From IMG/VR virus record IMGVR_UViG_3300030098_006327, positions 1 through 25,531 of that record: DNA of 25,531 nucleotides; one strand, written 5' to 3'. The position numbers and the translations under genes were made by a program. This document shows, piece by piece, positions 1,565-17,049 of this stretch; the stretch's first letter is position 1, and the number at the start of each line of letters is the position of its first letter. This DNA is from a virus. A model generated the notes under the pieces. That model was not told where the DNA came from, ran no database searches, and was given only the letters and a program-made list of their open reading frames with translations.

Positions 1565-2742
1565 TACCAACATTCTTTTATTTTTAAGCTGATAGTATAT
1601 TTATTATAAGCCACTTGCTTTACTTGTAGTGAGTTTTGGTCAAATCTACAGATTGCAAAATTTGAAGGACTATTATCAGGTGTAGAGCCACCTCCTTGTG
1701 GATTAAAGATGAATGGCAAATTACCTGCACCCATTGTTTTATTCCATACTGCACTAAAAAAATCTTCTCCATCTAATACATTAGAATTAAAGTAATCAGA
1801 ATTAACATCATCTGTATAATCATCAGAATCATAAGAACTAGCATTACTTGTATCAAATACTGTATTTCCAAGTGCATTTATAGGTAGAACTTGTTTATCT
1901 GAAAGATAGCTGAAGGTCAAATTCCACACTCGCCTTCCCCCCCTTGCACTTAATGTAGAGGCAATAGAGCCATCTCCTAATTCCCAACACCCTAAATCAC
2001 CCCATTTAGGAGCACCAGTATATCTAGCATTAGTAAGGGTAGCACCACCTTTAGTCTGTTGTGTAGTAATACCATCATTCTCTATTGTCATAGTTAGGTT
2101 AAGGTCAGGTGAATGTGGAAAGTCATAATAATTTCCAAATGCAATACCACCTATTTTAACTTGTTCTCCACCAGGGAATGGACTACCTGCTGTTTCTCCT
2201 GCATCTAGTGAACTATAAAATGCAGCATATATATTATTATGTGCATCACCACTCCACTCACAAGTAGCTAAACTAAAGCCATCATATTCAGGTTTCATTA
2301 TATTCTGTTGCCATGATGGATTAGCATTAATCCCACCTGTGATTAAAAATTCCCCACTATAATCATTAGTTGCATTAGAATAAGCATCAAGACCAAACTC
2401 TATAGGACTGCCTGTTCTTTGACTTTCACTAGCCATATTATGGTTTAAAATAGCATAATAACAATTCCCTTCCATCATTTGAGAAACAATAGTATTTTTA
2501 TATCTAGTAATAAAAGAAACTGCATCATGTGGAGTTTCTTTAAAATACCATGTTTTTGCTTTTATAGGATTAGAACCATCTTCAAAAACTCTGCGAATAT
2601 CCTCTGTTTTAGTATTCCAACCATCACCACTCATAGCATGAGAACCTGAAAAATATGGGTTTTGTTCATCAAGTAACCCTATAGATTTTGCCCATGAATG
2701 TAAATTTACATATATCCTAGGTGTGCCTACATTTTGACCCAT
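1564..2742 (-). CDS. Virion structural protein, probably tail tip/baseplate region, 392 aa
   Basis: A 392-residue soluble protein rich in Gly, Asn, Ser and aromatic residues, with no signal peptide or membrane segment. The C-terminal part (about residues 320-392) contains a pattern I associate with phage distal-tail proteins: a VWNKT helix, then LPFIFNP, a Gly/Pro-rich loop, FAICRFD, and a final beta-rich segment ending in LKIKEC. The gene follows the 157-residue tail protein with a TAATG overlap and a strong ribosome binding site (AGGAGGTTATTA). It stands downstream of the tape measure and tail-tip genes, where distal-tail or receptor-binding genes usually lie. Being a virion protein is well supported by context; the exact part is an inference. 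Confidence 0.6.
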   Translation of the reverse strand: MGQNVGTPRIYVNLHSWAKSIGLLDEQNPYFSGSHAMSGDGWNTKTEDIRRVFEDGSNPIKAKTWYFKETPHDAVSFITRYKNTIVSQMMEGNCYYAILNHNMASESQRTGSPIEFGLDAYSNATNDYSGEFLITGGINANPSWQQNIMKPEYDGFSLATCEWSGDAHNNIYAAFYSSLDAGETAGSPFPGGEQVKIGGIAFGNYYDFPHSPDLNLTMTIENDGITTQQTKGGATLTNARYTGAPKWGDLGCWELGDGSIASTLSARGGRRVWNLTFSYLSDKQVLPINALGNTVFDTSNASSYDSDDYTDDVNSDYFNSNVLDGEDFFSAVWNKTMGAGNLPFIFNPQGGGSTPDNSPSNFAICRFDQNSLQVKQVAYNKYTISLKIKECW

Positions 2743-3215
2743 TAATAACCTCCTGTACCTGAACTTCTAGGTGGAGTAGGCTGTGATATACTTACTCTCC
2801 TAGTTTCAGTTTCTTCAATTTCTGTTTTCTCTTTAATAGATGTTTTTCTAGGTATCTTGCCTGTAACATAAGTACCATTAAAATCTTCAGGGAATTGTGT
2901 AAAATCTTCCCAATTAGTATTTAATACATTCCAAAACCCTAACCCTTCTGCTACTGGTGTTGCATACTCCTGATATAAATCTCTATTTGTAACCCTGCAA
3001 GACAATATTCTTAATTCACCTTCATAAGTAAATAATACTTCAGGTTGCACATCACCTAAACTAATACCAATAATCATTCTATTATTATTCCTCATAAACC
3101 AACTATCAGGCAATTCTGAATCTGCATTAATCTTACCTTTGTATCTAATCTCAAATGCAGCTACATCAACTGCACCTTCTAATCTAACTTCGCCATTTCC
3201 ATAATAAATTCTCAT
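2742..3215 (-). CDS. Putative minor tail protein, 157 aa
   Basis: I do not recognise the family. The protein starts with a beta-rich stretch (about residues 1-75) that includes FEIRYKGKI and FTYEGELRI. The C-terminal ~35 residues are low-complexity, charged and Pro/Ser/Gly-rich (from about KTSIKEKTEIEE to the end), which suggests a disordered tail. It lies 13 bp after the tail-tip gene with AGAGGATAGATA as ribosome binding site, and its stop overlaps the next start (TAATG). The position between tail-tip and distal-tail genes points to a tail role. Confidence 0.6.
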   Translation of the reverse strand: MRIYYGNGEVRLEGAVDVAAFEIRYKGKINADSELPDSWFMRNNNRMIIGISLGDVQPEVLFTYEGELRILSCRVTNRDLYQEYATPVAEGLGFWNVLNTNWEDFTQFPEDFNGTYVTGKIPRKTSIKEKTEIEETETRRVSISQPTPPRSSGTGGY

Positions 3216-3228
3216 TATCTATCCTCTA

Positions 3229-6200
3229 TTAAGGTGCATTTAATACAATATCTACTATACCAACAATATCTAAAATATTAACCACACCATCACCATTAAC
3301 ATCTGCTGCATCAATTTGTGATTGGCTATAATCATGGTCACCAATTATAAAAGCAACAACAGACACTACATCTAAAACATTAACAATACCATCTTCAGTT
3401 GCATCTCCACTACCTGCTCCTAATGCTACTCCATTGTTATCTCCATTGTCATCATCAACTTCATCTTCTTCATTATCACCCCATGGTATAGATTCTTGCA
3501 CACTAAATGGAGGGTCATATCTTAATGTTATACCACTTTCTATAGGTTGTAGAATTTCTATCCTGATTTCAGTTTGTTCAGGGATAATTTCCATGCCTTG
3601 AGTTATATCTAAATTGTACTCAATTTGATTTAAAGTTGTATTCCAATTAGCCATTACATATATTGTAGATTGAAGGCTTTGCTCATAATTCTGTGTTGTA
3701 TCTAATGCTTGTATTACAATAATTGGTAAGTTAGATGTTCCACTATTTAATTCTACATCAACTAAATCTCCAAAAGAGCTAATGGGGTCAGCATCTTGTG
3801 CAAATGGACTATCTTGCCTATACCATTTATCCATACTAAATAAATTATTAAAGTCTGTATCACTTATATCAGAATCTTGACTTATTGTATATGATTCTTC
3901 TCCATTAAAATTAGAAAATCTAAATATTTCATCTCTTTGTGTTTGAGTAAATAATCTATCAGGAATATCTGCATCTTCATAGTAAGAAATATCTAAAGTA
4001 TCACCATCTATTAAATCATGTAATTGCATTAATTCAACAGATACACTATCTATATTTTTTTGTAAAGATGTAACATAAAATAATGGATAGGCTTGGTGTG
4101 TATCAGGTAAAAGTTCCACCTTTGTATAATCTCTACCATAAGCAGTTATGCCACCTAACAGTTCATCAAATTTCACTAAATCTCCTACAGATAAACCTAT
4201 GTACTTAACTGGCAGTTTTAATTTCAGTATTAGATGTTGGTTTTTATAGTGATTATGTAGAAATCTATTCATCCAATCAGCAGTATATTCATCTCTTATA
4301 TAACTAGATTGTAATTTACCTATATTATCATCAGGTGCATCAAATCCATAGAAATCTAAATAATCTGTATCTGTAACTGAATAATCACTAGAAACCTTTT
4401 TTAGATGGCTTTTTTGTGCATAATCATAATAGTAATCAACTTCATATTTAGAATAGATTTGTTCAGGTTTAGTTTTACTAAATGAATAATCTATAACATC
4501 ACTTACAGGCATTAAAAATGCTGATTCATAATCAGTTACATCTTGGTCTTGATATTGCAAATCATCTTGACCTATAGAGTAAAATCTTTTCATAGTATTA
4601 AATCTAAACTTACCATCATTACCAAAGTGTGGAAACATTAATGTACTTTTAGCAATATCCTCTATTAGCTTCTTACTAGATATTTGTTTGTCATGTACTG
4701 TAAATCCATATTTTAATCCTCTGTGTTCCCATACTGCTATTTGGTAATCTTCTTCATCAAAATCTGTATAACCTAATTCTTCTTCTAATATATGCCTTAT
4801 TATTACAGCAGGGTTTTCTGCCAGTTCATCTTGATATTCTCTACCTTTAACATTAGCATAGAAATCCTTATCAAAAACTTTTGTGGCATTTACCTCTCTT
4901 AATAAACTTATCTCATCAAAACCACCATTAGCAAGATTAGGTGTAGTTACTTTTCCAGTAAAAGTTGCTTTATTGCCATCTATATCTATCCAATTTTCAT
5001 AATGTATTGGTGCATTAGGGTTTGCTCCTTGACCTTCCCAACCACTTGGTGCTTCTGAACCCCAATCTGCATTTACAAAATTTATTTGTTGTGTTATCAT
5101 ACTATATTCATTAACAGATAATTCAGCTAATGAATGATAACCTGAATAATTTGCACTTAAACCACCACCTATATCATCTCCAAGATTAGAGTTAATATCA
5201 CTACTGGTTTGTATAACATAACCCCATTGTGGTAAAAGTGTTCCTTGACTATATGGAGTTATGCTACTAAAGTTTACACCATTTAATGTTAAACCTATTA
5301 GCCTAACAATATCAGAATCAGAAACATTTACATAGTCATATTGTGGTAAAAATTTAAACCCTAATTTTAACATCATAGCTTCATAATTACCTGATGAACC
5401 TGCTGTTTCTATATTATATATTGACCTAAATTCAATATTTAAATAACCTTCATTGCTATCATAAAGTAAAATTATATCATTACCTTTAGTAAATTCAGTA
5501 ATATCATCATTTAATTCAAAAACTCTTTTACCCTCCCAATGAACATCATTTGGTTCTAATGAGCCATCAAAAATTAAAGGTAAAGAATCACCTGAAAATG
5601 TTAAATCTAAATCAGAGCTATCTTCTACATCTTCATCAAGATTAGATAAAGATACTTGAAAATTATTTGAAGCATCTCTGCATTTAAGTGAAATATCTTC
5701 CACATTATCAGAAGCAGTTATTTGGCTTATTTTAGATGTTTTAAACTTTATATTACTATCTGAAGGATGGGTACTATACTGGTTTTCTTTCCTAACCTCT
5801 AAATAGCTGTCTAAATATACAAAAAGTGGATGTTGCCATTTTTCAAAATCTGTATAAATATCAGGATAACCCTGCATTTGTCTATAATCAGAAACTAAAG
5901 TGTTATATAAATCATTAAATACTAAAGGACTTCTATCAACATAACCATAAACCATAGGTATAGGTTTATTTCTGTATTTATCTAAAACACTTTCATCAGC
6001 AGGTAAAAATTCTTGTGGTAAGTCTTTATGTGCATTACTCTCTGTTAAATCTTCTAACTCTACAGTAACTGTATCAGTAGTATGTGATATTCTTCTAATT
6101 TTACCTGTATATATTTTAGGGCAATCAGTATCTTCACCTGCATCTAATGTTGTAGATGTTTGTGATTTCCAATACACACATACTTCTTTATTTATCATAG

Positions 6201-6471
6201 ATGTATTTTGAAGTAAATCAGAAAACCTAGAGCCTTCATACTCATAATTAGAAATAGATAAAGTAACAGATGATATTTTAAATCTTCTATTCTCTATATC
6301 TACTGATTGTTTAATTGAAGGAATATTTAATAATATAGGCTGAAAGTATTGCCCATCTACAGAAAGATTGTTTGTTGATATAAATATATCTAAATCAGTA
6401 AATACAACTAATGGAATTAAACTTGTGTCTTTGCCTTGTATGTCATTTAAAAAATTAGCAGGTAAGTTCAT
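3229..6471 (-). CDS. Large tail-tip/hub protein with C-terminal dockerin-like pair, 1080 aa
   Basis: This is the longest gene of the window and lies directly after the tape measure gene (TAATG overlap), the usual place of the tail-tip or central hub protein. The first ~170 residues are beta-rich (LVVFTDLDIFI, ISSVTLSISNYEYEGSRF, VCVYWKS, IYTGKIRRI) and resemble the start of hub proteins that bind the distal tail ring. The middle (about 540-850) has an alpha/beta part with ADWMNRFLHNHYKNQHL and LPVKYIGLSVGDLVKFDE, similar in style to lambda gpJ or DUF2163-type proteins. An acidic Asp/Glu/Asn linker (about 1000-1020) leads into two dockerin-type F-hand repeats at the end (about 1022-1080). The hub call is mainly from position and size; the dockerin-like end is read directly. 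Confidence 0.75.
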   Translation of the reverse strand: MNLPANFLNDIQGKDTSLIPLVVFTDLDIFISTNNLSVDGQYFQPILLNIPSIKQSVDIENRRFKISSVTLSISNYEYEGSRFSDLLQNTSMINKEVCVYWKSQTSTTLDAGEDTDCPKIYTGKIRRISHTTDTVTVELEDLTESNAHKDLPQEFLPADESVLDKYRNKPIPMVYGYVDRSPLVFNDLYNTLVSDYRQMQGYPDIYTDFEKWQHPLFVYLDSYLEVRKENQYSTHPSDSNIKFKTSKISQITASDNVEDISLKCRDASNNFQVSLSNLDEDVEDSSDLDLTFSGDSLPLIFDGSLEPNDVHWEGKRVFELNDDITEFTKGNDIILLYDSNEGYLNIEFRSIYNIETAGSSGNYEAMMLKLGFKFLPQYDYVNVSDSDIVRLIGLTLNGVNFSSITPYSQGTLLPQWGYVIQTSSDINSNLGDDIGGGLSANYSGYHSLAELSVNEYSMITQQINFVNADWGSEAPSGWEGQGANPNAPIHYENWIDIDGNKATFTGKVTTPNLANGGFDEISLLREVNATKVFDKDFYANVKGREYQDELAENPAVIIRHILEEELGYTDFDEEDYQIAVWEHRGLKYGFTVHDKQISSKKLIEDIAKSTLMFPHFGNDGKFRFNTMKRFYSIGQDDLQYQDQDVTDYESAFLMPVSDVIDYSFSKTKPEQIYSKYEVDYYYDYAQKSHLKKVSSDYSVTDTDYLDFYGFDAPDDNIGKLQSSYIRDEYTADWMNRFLHNHYKNQHLILKLKLPVKYIGLSVGDLVKFDELLGGITAYGRDYTKVELLPDTHQAYPLFYVTSLQKNIDSVSVELMQLHDLIDGDTLDISYYEDADIPDRLFTQTQRDEIFRFSNFNGEESYTISQDSDISDTDFNNLFSMDKWYRQDSPFAQDADPISSFGDLVDVELNSGTSNLPIIVIQALDTTQNYEQSLQSTIYVMANWNTTLNQIEYNLDITQGMEIIPEQTEIRIEILQPIESGITLRYDPPFSVQESIPWGDNEEDEVDDDNGDNNGVALGAGSGDATEDGIVNVLDVVSVVAFIIGDHDYSQSQIDAADVNGDGVVNILDIVGIVDIVLNAP
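3232..3408 (-). other. Dockerin type I-like domain (two Ca-binding F-hand repeats) within the tail-tip gene
   Basis: The final 59 residues contain GDATEDGIVNVLDVVSVV and, 35 residues later, ADVNGDGVVNILDIVGIV. Both fit the 12-residue Ca loop D-x-[NDT]-x-D-G-x-[VI]-N-x-x-D followed by a helix, the dockerin/EF-hand-like pattern. Known dockerins bind cohesins in cellulosomes, but many bacteria carry such repeats on surface proteins outside cellulosomes. An acidic flexible linker precedes the domain, so it is probably displayed outward on the tail tip. Confidence 0.88.
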
Positions 6472-8168
6472 TAGCTAAATGCAACCCCTTTCCTAGTAGC
6501 TTCTCTAATTGCATCTGCTAGATCGCCTTCTACAAAATCTTGTGTTAAAATATTTCCTGATACATTTACTGTTACTGATCCTCCTTGTGGGCCATCAATA
6601 TTAGGGCCTTCAAGAGGAGTGATTGATACTTGCTCTGCTTTATTATTTTCCCCTGCCATAATCAATGTAGGCCTATTAACTACTTCATCCATTCCAGTTT
6701 CAGCAAATTTTATAGATTTTAAACCTGAAACAGCATTTTGCATTAAAGAACCAATAACTGCACCTGCAGTAGCAGATGCGATAGCCCCACCTATAGGGCC
6801 AAACATTCCAAAACTACCTGAGATATGTTTAGCTATAGCTATTTGAAGTTGTGCTATAATTTCTTTCTGAGCAGATTCTTGTGCAGCTTTTGCTACATTT
6901 TTATATGCCATTCCTTGCTGCATAGATGAAATTAATGTTGATTCCATTGATTTTCTTAAATCATCTTGTGTTTTCTTAGCATCTTTCTGTGCATTAGTTA
7001 GCAAATTAAGAGATGCAGCTAACTCAGGATATTGCTCTTGAAACCTTTCAATAAACTCTTGCTCTTTAATTCGTTCATCATTTGTCTTAATTAATTTTTC
7101 AGTAAAATCACTATATTCTTTACTTGCAAGTTGATGTGATTCTATCCAATCAGGTAGACTGTTGTCTTGGTATAATATATTTACTTCATTAAGCCTTTCA
7201 GATAATGCTGCTATAATACCTTCTAATTCCTTAACTCTTGGAGTTTCATTAGGATCAACATAACCAACCCTCACAGCATCTTGTTTAGCTTTCACCAAAT
7301 CCTTTGTTCGCTTTTCTATCTCGCCTAATAACTTAAAGAAATCCGTAGAGCTTTCTATTTCCCCTAAATTTAAGCGATGCAAACTGTCAAGGTAAGCAGT
7401 TACAGCTTCCGATGCACCCTTAAATAGCTTTGCTGACCTAATAATTAAAGGCTCTAATAACTGACCTATAACTTCTGCTGTATCCCCTGCAGCATTTCCT
7501 GCCTGAGATAAAGCACCTGCCATAGTTTCAGCTTGTGCTGTAGCTTGTCCACCAAACAATCTCGCAGCATTATTAGTCAAAGAAGTTAATCTTTCAGTAG
7601 ACCCTGCAGCACCCTCTGCTTGTATACCATACCTAGATAATGCATTAGTAGATGATCCAAATGATTTAGCAACTAAATCTGCTGCAGCATTTAAATCCAT
7701 ACCTTTTGCAGCAGCCAAATCTAAAGTTGTTCTTGTTAATTGTCTGATTTGCTCTTCATCTTTTGTAAAAGCAGCAATTAATGATTGTACTCCTATTATA
7801 GCTTCATCACCAAATGCAGTTTGTTGTTGCAATGCAGATGCCTGATCTAATAAAGCTTGTGATGTCCTCCCTAAAGCAGATGATAATTTCTTTTCTGCTA
7901 GTTCTTGCTCTGCAAAAGCATCAACAGCTTTTTTAATAGAAGCAATAGTACCACCTAATGCAAAAGTAACTAGCAATAGGTTGTTTCTCATAGCACCTAA
8001 ACCTCTTCTTAGGCCCTCAGTTTTAATCCTTAATCTTCCAAAACCTTCTGCAGCACTATCTGACTTCTTTTTTACATCATCAACACCTTTGCCTAATTTC
8101 TTAAATTCTGAATTAGCCTTACTTGTTTGTGCCTTTACTTCAAATATTAATTGGTTTTTATCAGCCAT
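6471..8168 (-). CDS. Tail tape measure protein, 565 aa
   Basis: The protein has the usual tape-measure composition: a helical, Ala/Lys-rich N-terminus (about 1-50), a hydrophobic segment (about NNLLLVTFALGGTIASI), a long Ala/Gln/Leu-rich helical body, and a second Gly/Ala-rich hydrophobic segment near residue 450 (GPIGGAIASATAGAVIGSL). Tape measures set tail length and help DNA pass the membrane. At about 0.15 nm per residue, a known rule for the family, 565 residues would give a tail of roughly 85 nm, short for a siphovirus. It follows the frameshifted chaperone genes (8-bp overlap) and precedes the tail-tip gene, the classic order. Confidence 0.88.
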   Translation of the reverse strand: MADKNQLIFEVKAQTSKANSEFKKLGKGVDDVKKKSDSAAEGFGRLRIKTEGLRRGLGAMRNNLLLVTFALGGTIASIKKAVDAFAEQELAEKKLSSALGRTSQALLDQASALQQQTAFGDEAIIGVQSLIAAFTKDEEQIRQLTRTTLDLAAAKGMDLNAAADLVAKSFGSSTNALSRYGIQAEGAAGSTERLTSLTNNAARLFGGQATAQAETMAGALSQAGNAAGDTAEVIGQLLEPLIIRSAKLFKGASEAVTAYLDSLHRLNLGEIESSTDFFKLLGEIEKRTKDLVKAKQDAVRVGYVDPNETPRVKELEGIIAALSERLNEVNILYQDNSLPDWIESHQLASKEYSDFTEKLIKTNDERIKEQEFIERFQEQYPELAASLNLLTNAQKDAKKTQDDLRKSMESTLISSMQQGMAYKNVAKAAQESAQKEIIAQLQIAIAKHISGSFGMFGPIGGAIASATAGAVIGSLMQNAVSGLKSIKFAETGMDEVVNRPTLIMAGENNKAEQVSITPLEGPNIDGPQGGSVTVNVSGNILTQDFVEGDLADAIREATRKGVAFS

Positions 8169-16109: not shown

Positions 16110-16339
16110 TCTGAACTTGTCCATTCTGATTTAGCTAATTCTGTTAATATTTCACTATGAGTATAAGTAGTCATACCATCAAAGCAACTAGGAGTATCAC
16201 CATTCCATTTAAGTATTGCTTTAGTATCATCATTTGTTTTTCTTAATGTAGCAGTAGATGATTGCATAGCACTTAAAATCATCTCATCTGTAATATCAGA
16301 TACATTTACTATAACCCATTTTCTATTAAAATAATCCAT
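16106..16339 (-). CDS. Hypothetical protein upstream of lysozyme, 77 aa
   Basis: No family recognised with certainty. The N-terminus (YFNRKWVIVNVSDITDEM) is followed by a Ser/Thr-rich helical stretch and a short C-terminal part containing KWNGDTPSCFDG and a final helix (HSEILTELAKS). The start overlaps the LamG gene stop (TAATG) with GGAG ten bases upstream, and the end overlaps the lysozyme start. It may be a small virion-associated or tail-fibre related protein. Confidence 0.6.
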   Translation of the reverse strand: MDYFNRKWVIVNVSDITDEMILSAMQSSTATLRKTNDDTKAILKWNGDTPSCFDGMTTYTHSEILTELAKSEWTSSE

Positions 16340-17049
16340 TATGGTGTATCTCCTTGAAAATCATCTGCTGCCATATTAGTCATAGTTCCATTATTAGAGT
16401 TATCTGACATATCATAAATAGTAGTGCCTGAATGATTTTCTAAACCATCACCCATTCTATACCAACCTTTAAGATGCAACCTTAAATAGCCATGGTCAAG
16501 ATAATTAAATATTTCACCACTATTATATATTACTTTAATTTGTTGTGCAGTTAATGTTGTATTATATATAACAACTTCAGATATGTTCCCATTAAAAAAG
16601 TATTGACTTCCACTTGCAGGTAAACTATCTCCACCTATCATAGCATTTGTATCAGTATCTAAATCAGTTTCTGTTCTAGTTTCTGTTTCCATTAAAACTC
16701 CATCAACATATACTTTTTGATTAATGCCATTGTATGTTGCTACAATATGATACCATCTACCTGCTGTTATAGCCACACCTGTTGTATTGACATTCTCAAC
16801 TTTAAATACTATTTCTTCACTACCATTTACATATAATAATATTCCTTTAGTAGTTCCATTCTTCCTATTAGAGAAAATAGTTTTATAGTCACCATCATCA
16901 GTTACTTTAATCCAAGAAGCTATAGTTATATTTGTGTGATTAAATGGAGTGCCTAATTGCACATAATCATCAGTACCATCAAATGCTAATGAAAATTCAT
17001 CTCTGAACTTATCACCACCCATTGTTGTTATTCTTCTAGTGGTAAACAT
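16339..17049 (-). CDS. LamG/concanavalin A-like lectin domain protein, 236 aa
   Basis: About residues 18-185 match the laminin G-type 3 (concanavalin A-like) fold: SLAFDGTDDYVQLGTP, ITIASWIKVTDD, ILLYVNGSEEIVFKV, GRWYHIVATYNG, KVYVDGVL, and FFNGNISEVVIYN then LTAQQIKVIYNSG. These domains bind carbohydrates and other ligands. In phages they are found on capsid or tail surface proteins that stick to host polysaccharide. A C-terminal ~50 residues (YRMGDGLENHSGTTIYDMSD) resembles the start of a second LamG-type unit. Start overlaps the preceding stop (TAATG); no signal peptide. It is encoded close to the capsid gene, so display on the head is as likely as on the tail. Confidence 0.82.
   Translation of the reverse strand: MFTTRRITTMGGDKFRDEFSLAFDGTDDYVQLGTPFNHTNITIASWIKVTDDGDYKTIFSNRKNGTTKGILLYVNGSEEIVFKVENVNTTGVAITAGRWYHIVATYNGINQKVYVDGVLMETETRTETDLDTDTNAMIGGDSLPASGSQYFFNGNISEVVIYNTTLTAQQIKVIYNSGEIFNYLDHGYLRLHLKGWYRMGDGLENHSGTTIYDMSDNSNNGTMTNMAADDFQGDTP

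Follow-up and report, generated by a model that had tools for sequence, protein, structure and literature searches.

A dockerin at the tail tip of a marine phage lineage, next to a gene for a predicted cohesin-like protein with a counterpart in Fidelibacterota

Results

The tail-tip protein ends in a dockerin

The window analysed here spans an entire IMG/VR virus record (25,531 bases) and comes from a marine virus of bacteria. The features discussed below are collected in Table 1. The 1080-residue protein is labelled a tail-tip protein because its gene lies directly downstream of the tape-measure gene. It comprises a hub conserved at about residues 1-200 and 520-830, a variable middle and post-hub region, and a C-terminal dockerin. 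Phage tail-tip hubs such as lambda gpJ carry C-terminal receptor-binding extensions, and the window protein resembles the gpJ type in its large size, in the place of its gene after the tape measure, and in combining a conserved hub with a variable distal C-terminus. It differs in that its distal module is a dockerin and in that the hub body gave no match at useful E-values to PHROG, Pfam or PDB profiles, those of characterised hubs included. The next gene downstream, which we call X, starts 13 bases after the stop codon of the dockerin gene.

Table 1. Positions of the tail-tip block and related features in the window
Feature	Position	Strand	Basis
Tape-measure protein, directly upstream of the tail-tip gene	6471..8168	-	phrog_27166, E 2.9e-9
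Tail-tip (hub) protein, 1080 aa	3229..6471	-	ORF and homologues
Second conserved hub region, residues 549-819 (dockerin-blind query)	4015..4827	-	Alignments A1-A3
Acidic linker preceding the dockerin	3409..3480 (approx.)	-	Sequence
Dockerin type I module, residues 1022-1080	3232..3408	-	PF00404 match; conservation across 99 sequences
F-hand Ca loop 1, DATEDGIVNVLD, residues 1023-1034	3370..3405	-	Sequence; ligand positions kept in relatives
F-hand Ca loop 2, DVNGDGVVNILD, residues 1057-1068	3268..3303	-	Sequence; ligand positions kept in relatives
Gene X, 157 aa, cohesin-like beta-sandwich (predicted), flexible tail and GGY end	2742..3215	-	AF2 model, cohesin fold matches, adjacency, host homologues
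X beta-sandwich domain, residues 1-90, pLDDT >90	2946..3215	-	AF2 model
GGY end of X	2745-2753	-	
Third gene of the tail-tip block, 392 aa	1564..2742	-	Conserved in relatives
Separate LamG/ConA-like lectin	16339-17049	-	Laminin_G_3, 104.5 bits

A sequence-only reading of this DNA had placed paired F-hand loops, preceded by an acidic linker, at the end of the tail-tip protein, and had taken them for a dockerin. The loops, the linker and their positions were all confirmed from the sequence, and the identity is borne out by the Pfam profile PF00404 (Dockerin_1), which matches residues 1022-1069 (E 3.6e-7; 30.7 bits, where the cut-off is 22.9). Both loops follow the F-hand ligand pattern D1, N/D3, D5, N9, D12, with a threonine at position 3 of loop 1. 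In the PDB, phmmer found dockerin 6kg9 of Clostridium acetobutylicum (E 0.0015), and the dockerin in the model of a relative, L138, matched the dockerin fold of 2ccl_B (Z 9.5, 61 residues aligned, 2.1 A). The C-terminal end of the tail-tip protein is thus a genuine dockerin. It is like the type I cellulosomal dockerins of Clostridium thermocellum (1ohz/2ccl) and C. acetobutylicum (6kg9) in its two F-hand calcium loops, each with a helix, in its C-terminal position and, judged by the L138 model, in its predicted fold (Z 8-9.5). Unlike them, it sits on a tail protein, carries [VI]L at positions 10-11 and has no enzyme or cellulose context.

The dockerin is conserved across a viral family

A degenerate DNA pattern for DG[IV]VN[IV]LD[IV]V, run over viral contigs, gave 34 loci, at most of which the motif formed the C-terminus of a homologue of the window tail protein. 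Since this search itself used the dockerin, it was rerun with alignments restricted to the hub body; the hub alignment A1 was too diverse for scanning, and two subsets of it (A2 and A3) were scanned against the viral contigs. In these two dockerin-blind scans, 88 of the 101 non-redundant complete homologues ended in a dockerin. Above a hub score of 300 the proportion was 73/75, and in one of the two exceptions (L202) the dockerin lies in an adjoining ORF. Over all dockerin-bearing complete ORFs, the median distance from the end of the module to the C-terminus is 2 residues.

The calcium ligands are strongly conserved among 99 sequences: D 0.99, N 0.86 (with T, as in the window, at 0.12), D 0.98, N 0.93 and D 0.99 in loop 1, and D 0.98, N 0.89, D 0.95, N 0.92 and D 1.00 in loop 2. 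Positions 10-11 of the loops are nearly always [VI]L; in 21% of the sequences, position 11 of loop 2 is Q. The sequence-only reading had allowed that this might be an ordinary end of the protein family with no conserved calcium residues; the end is indeed typical of the family, but the calcium residues are conserved. At greater distance the module decays, being degenerate in its second loop in three relatives (L254, L257 and L258) and missing from two (L237 and L247).

A dockerin might also appear at such a place by chance resemblance or by mis-assembly with host DNA. Recurrence of the same C-terminal module in homologues gathered without using the dockerin argues that the match is more than chance, the Pfam score lies over its cut-off, and about 100 distinct viral contigs repeat the same gene order. 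Nothing was found in favour of this explanation, and, refuted in this way by the relatives, it retains next to no credence.

The whole window tail protein, as a direct query, matched nothing in the viral contigs or INPHARED; the tips of two relatives (L009 and L033) and the dockerin alone matched nothing in INPHARED; and a terminase-based search gave 3 relatives only. One related viral contig has, between integrase-like and repressor-like genes, a gene for a small half-dockerin protein that appears to carry a signal peptide (L251:11761-12303, minus strand).

The neighbouring gene encodes a predicted cohesin-like protein

Gene X lies beside the tip in 99 of 101 dockerin-bearing non-redundant tips; in the other two (L149 and L257) the contig edge is reached, so that X is present in 99/99 tips with downstream sequence. 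AlphaFold2, run on 32 aligned X proteins, predicted a nine-stranded sandwich over residues 1-90 (pLDDT >90), followed by a disordered tail. With this model as query, the best PDB match in Foldseek was the cohesin 2vo8 (E 1.1e-3), and rows 1-17 from a structural aligner were all cohesins (Z 10.3 to 8.6); among the matches listed in this PDB-wide comparison, no other fold ranked above them. X of relative L138, in a modelled chain described below, likewise matched cohesin (Z 10.4). At the sequence level X gave no useful match to Pfam or PDB, none of the 32 members matched the Cohesin family, and hhalign against PF00963 cohesins gave a probability of 0.5 for phage X and 11 for the host X described below. 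We therefore call X cohesin-like rather than a cohesin, the assignment resting on a predicted nine-stranded beta-sandwich. The model has the same sandwich arrangement as the non-cellulosomal cohesins of C. perfringens (2vo8/2jh2) and Archaeoglobus fulgidus (2xdh; Z 9-10). Unlike these, X is shorter (~90-100 residues), shows no detectable PF00963 sequence similarity, and would bind dockerin only putatively.

In 72 of about 90 phage X proteins the flexible tail closes with GGY, a pattern that would suit an end peptide docking onto another protein. The X proteins of one subgroup (L006, L033 and L226) have a tail with an inserted HIHxDGxxMxGGxH-type segment. A 1389-residue viral protein in BFVD (A0A516LNX3) has an X-like fold and is possibly a natural fusion of tip and X.

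Three relatives depart from the usual arrangement. In L244 the post-hub region and dockerin form a separate ORF (L244:7590-8270) between the hub gene and X, directly before X, a natural gene split. In L220 (L220:7377-8966) X is fused to a LamG lectin that is 32% identical (E 3e-23) to the separate LamG protein of the window. The third-gene homologue of L038 (L038:4305-5627) carries an inserted dockerin at residues 241-300 that has no counterpart in the window homologue. Each is a single observation, and all three fit a role of X as an adaptor. The window LamG protein and the X-LamG fusion of L220 both end in ...DTP.

Fidelibacterota carry dockerin and X in one exported chain

The sequence-only reading had suggested that the dockerin might reveal the host lineage, and it does carry a hint of this kind. 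Its closest bacterial relative is a dockerin of the Fidelibacterota (Marinimicrobia, SAR406), at 53% identity, and the X gene indicates the same phylum. The X profile found homologues in 28/199 Fidelibacterota genomes (best E 7.4e-23), with up to 15 copies per genome, as against 0/198 Bacteroidota and 0/82 KSB1 phylum genomes. Phage X and host X align by hhalign with a probability of 99.7 and an E-value of 3e-25 over 106 columns. Hub homologues in phage-type gene blocks were found in 5/199 Fidelibacterota genomes vs 0/198 Bacteroidota, although some of these may sit on mis-binned contigs. Prophage-like regions of Fidelibacterota genomes with hub homologues (L313, L314, L315 and L317) have neither dockerin nor X, and so back the host phylum rather than the module. 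On the dockerin match, the restriction of X to one phylum among those tested and the hub homologues, we favour Fidelibacterota as the probable hosts.

All 51 host X copies that were read have a dockerin 4-20 aa upstream; one of the 51 is cut by the contig end, with half a dockerin visible. Complete chains have a PNPFN-type T9SS sorting domain (Por_Secre_tail) downstream. A strict sorting motif was counted in 41/51 copies, the listed exceptions being variant motifs or truncated chains. In the proteins scanned, no Pfam family covers the host X domain (L263-L312), which is apparently an unannotated cohesin-fold domain that follows dockerins in T9SS-exported proteins. Compared with the phage, the host X is homologous and the dockerin lies directly upstream in both; the host has one chain with a sorting tail, whereas the phage has two adjacent genes and no sorting tail. 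Such a Rosetta-stone arrangement suggests that the modules work together, although two modules may share a host chain without binding one another.

Recent acquisition of X from the host was considered and is not favoured: in a tree of this short domain, phage and host X fall in separate clades but for 2 of 150 sequences.

In type II cellulosomal scaffoldins an X module precedes the dockerin in one chain. The present pairing resembles these X-module-dockerin dyads in that a beta-sandwich module accompanies a dockerin; it differs from them in its order, since X here follows the dockerin (host) or is a separate protein (phage).

The post-hub region and dockerin are exchanged between constant flanks

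Among 46 pairs of relatives with hub identity above 85%, hub and X had a mean identity of 0.93, compared with 0.78 in the post-hub region and 0.75 in the dockerin. In L217 vs L227, hub and X are each 100% identical, whereas the post-hub regions share 29% and the dockerins 38%. The post-hub and dockerin segment is a cassette exchanged between constant flanks, which is typical of host-recognition parts; its swapping in near-identical phages points to host recognition. Since one X coexists with different dockerins, any binding between them must use a conserved face.

Such exchange, as seen in receptor-binding parts, also suits our main rival explanation, in which the dockerin is a receptor-binding end that grips a cohesin on the host surface, with or without X (as a split X-dockerin dyad), and so mimics the dockerin-bearing exports of the host. 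The cohesins are there: a search of putative hosts, as the sequence-only reading had proposed, found PF00963 in 8/8 of the Fidelibacterota genomes first examined, 7 of them above the family cut-off. Among the cohesin proteins scanned, 5/6 also match Por_Secre_tail, 3 above its cut-off, so that they are probably exported, and a surface cohesin as receptor must be considered a serious rival. Positions 10-11 of the dockerin repeats are the usual recognition sites, however, and here they are conserved rather than diversifying; a grip on host cohesin also leaves, by itself, the constant place of X after the dockerin unexplained. We regard this explanation as a real possibility, though short of probable.

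The pairing of dockerin with X was modelled by AlphaFold2 as a read-through chain of L138 (alignment A5), in which the stop codon between the two was taken as a residue, solely as a modelling device. Both modules were folded (pTM 0.56), but their mutual docking was not confirmed at that pTM. Co-evolution of the two was also tested and proved weak: once the hub was controlled for, their distances correlated with a partial rho of 0.12, the largest of 500 permutations reaching 0.15. Moreover, X is kept without a recognisable dockerin in several relatives (L226, L251, L246, where it is weak, and L248/L252), which implies that some role of X needs no dockerin. These retentions, the lack of a confident contact in the read-through model and the degenerate second loops of the distant relatives would all suit a dockerin that, stabilised by calcium, serves as a structural end-cap or in oligomerisation and has no partner of the cohesin type, with X acting independently as a tail protein bound to the hub or to the product of the third gene. 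This we consider improbable, since the host fusions pair exactly dockerin and X in every copy read and the [VI]L helix starts, being conserved and exposed, point to a surface that binds protein.

Discussion

The finding is larger than first thought: a phage lineage has a dockerin at its tail tip and a neighbouring gene of predicted cohesin fold, matching a dockerin-X module of its putative hosts. Taken as a whole, the sequence-only interpretation, which looked to a cohesin-like or other partner on the host surface or to adsorption that might depend on calcium, is partly supported: the dockerin identity, the paired calcium loops and a hint of the host lineage are borne out. A cohesin-like partner is plausible; besides a host protein, the phage itself offers the nearest candidate, in its next gene.

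We consider the chances about even that phage dockerin and X are a host-derived dockerin/cohesin-like pair, forming a tail-tip joint with a role in host recognition. The phages would then carry a two-gene version of the Fidelibacterota module found on T9SS-exported proteins. Where the host strings dockerin, X domain of predicted cohesin fold and sorting tail along one chain, the phage has the dockerin as the C-terminal end of its hub and X as the product of the next gene. Most likely, the calcium-loaded dockerin would be bound in trans by X through the conserved hydrophobic [VI]L helix starts, the two proteins thus making direct contact. The joint, presumably dependent on calcium, would fix X, its flexible tail and any cargo, such as the LamG lectin in one relative, at the distal end of the tail, so that X would be a component of the virion. 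There, X and its cargo may serve host recognition.

Cohesin-dockerin pairs are among the strongest reversible protein joints known, and have been described in cellulosomes and in microbial surface proteins whose use is unclear. We found no precedent among the named phages of INPHARED, nor any paper in the literature searched that describes phage tail tips with a dockerin or cohesin, preprints and most subscription papers lying outside that search. The nearest mentions are a tail protein modelled on a template that is a dockerin-related carbohydrate-binding structure (PMC5967307) and gene 40 of Vibrio phage VvAW1, with a blastp resemblance to a dockerin protein (PMC3558961).

If the proposed pairing is true, it would be the first joint of the cohesin-dockerin type known in a virion. 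The work also proposes hosts (Fidelibacterota/SAR406) for a group of phages that matches no named phage, and exposes in this abundant marine phylum an unannotated domain, apparently of cohesin fold, that is linked to dockerins and T9SS export. The occurrence of both folds, that of X as predicted, in adjacent tail-tip genes of about 100 viral contigs points to a new means of building or aiming phage tails. A marine phage lineage might build its tail tip with a calcium-dependent dockerin/cohesin-like pair from the surface-protein assembly of its hosts, the dockerin being the exchangeable recognition end and X the constant adaptor, a picture to which we give slightly under an even chance. These viruses may, in other words, put together their tail tip, or hold on to cells, by means of a borrowed plug-and-socket joint.
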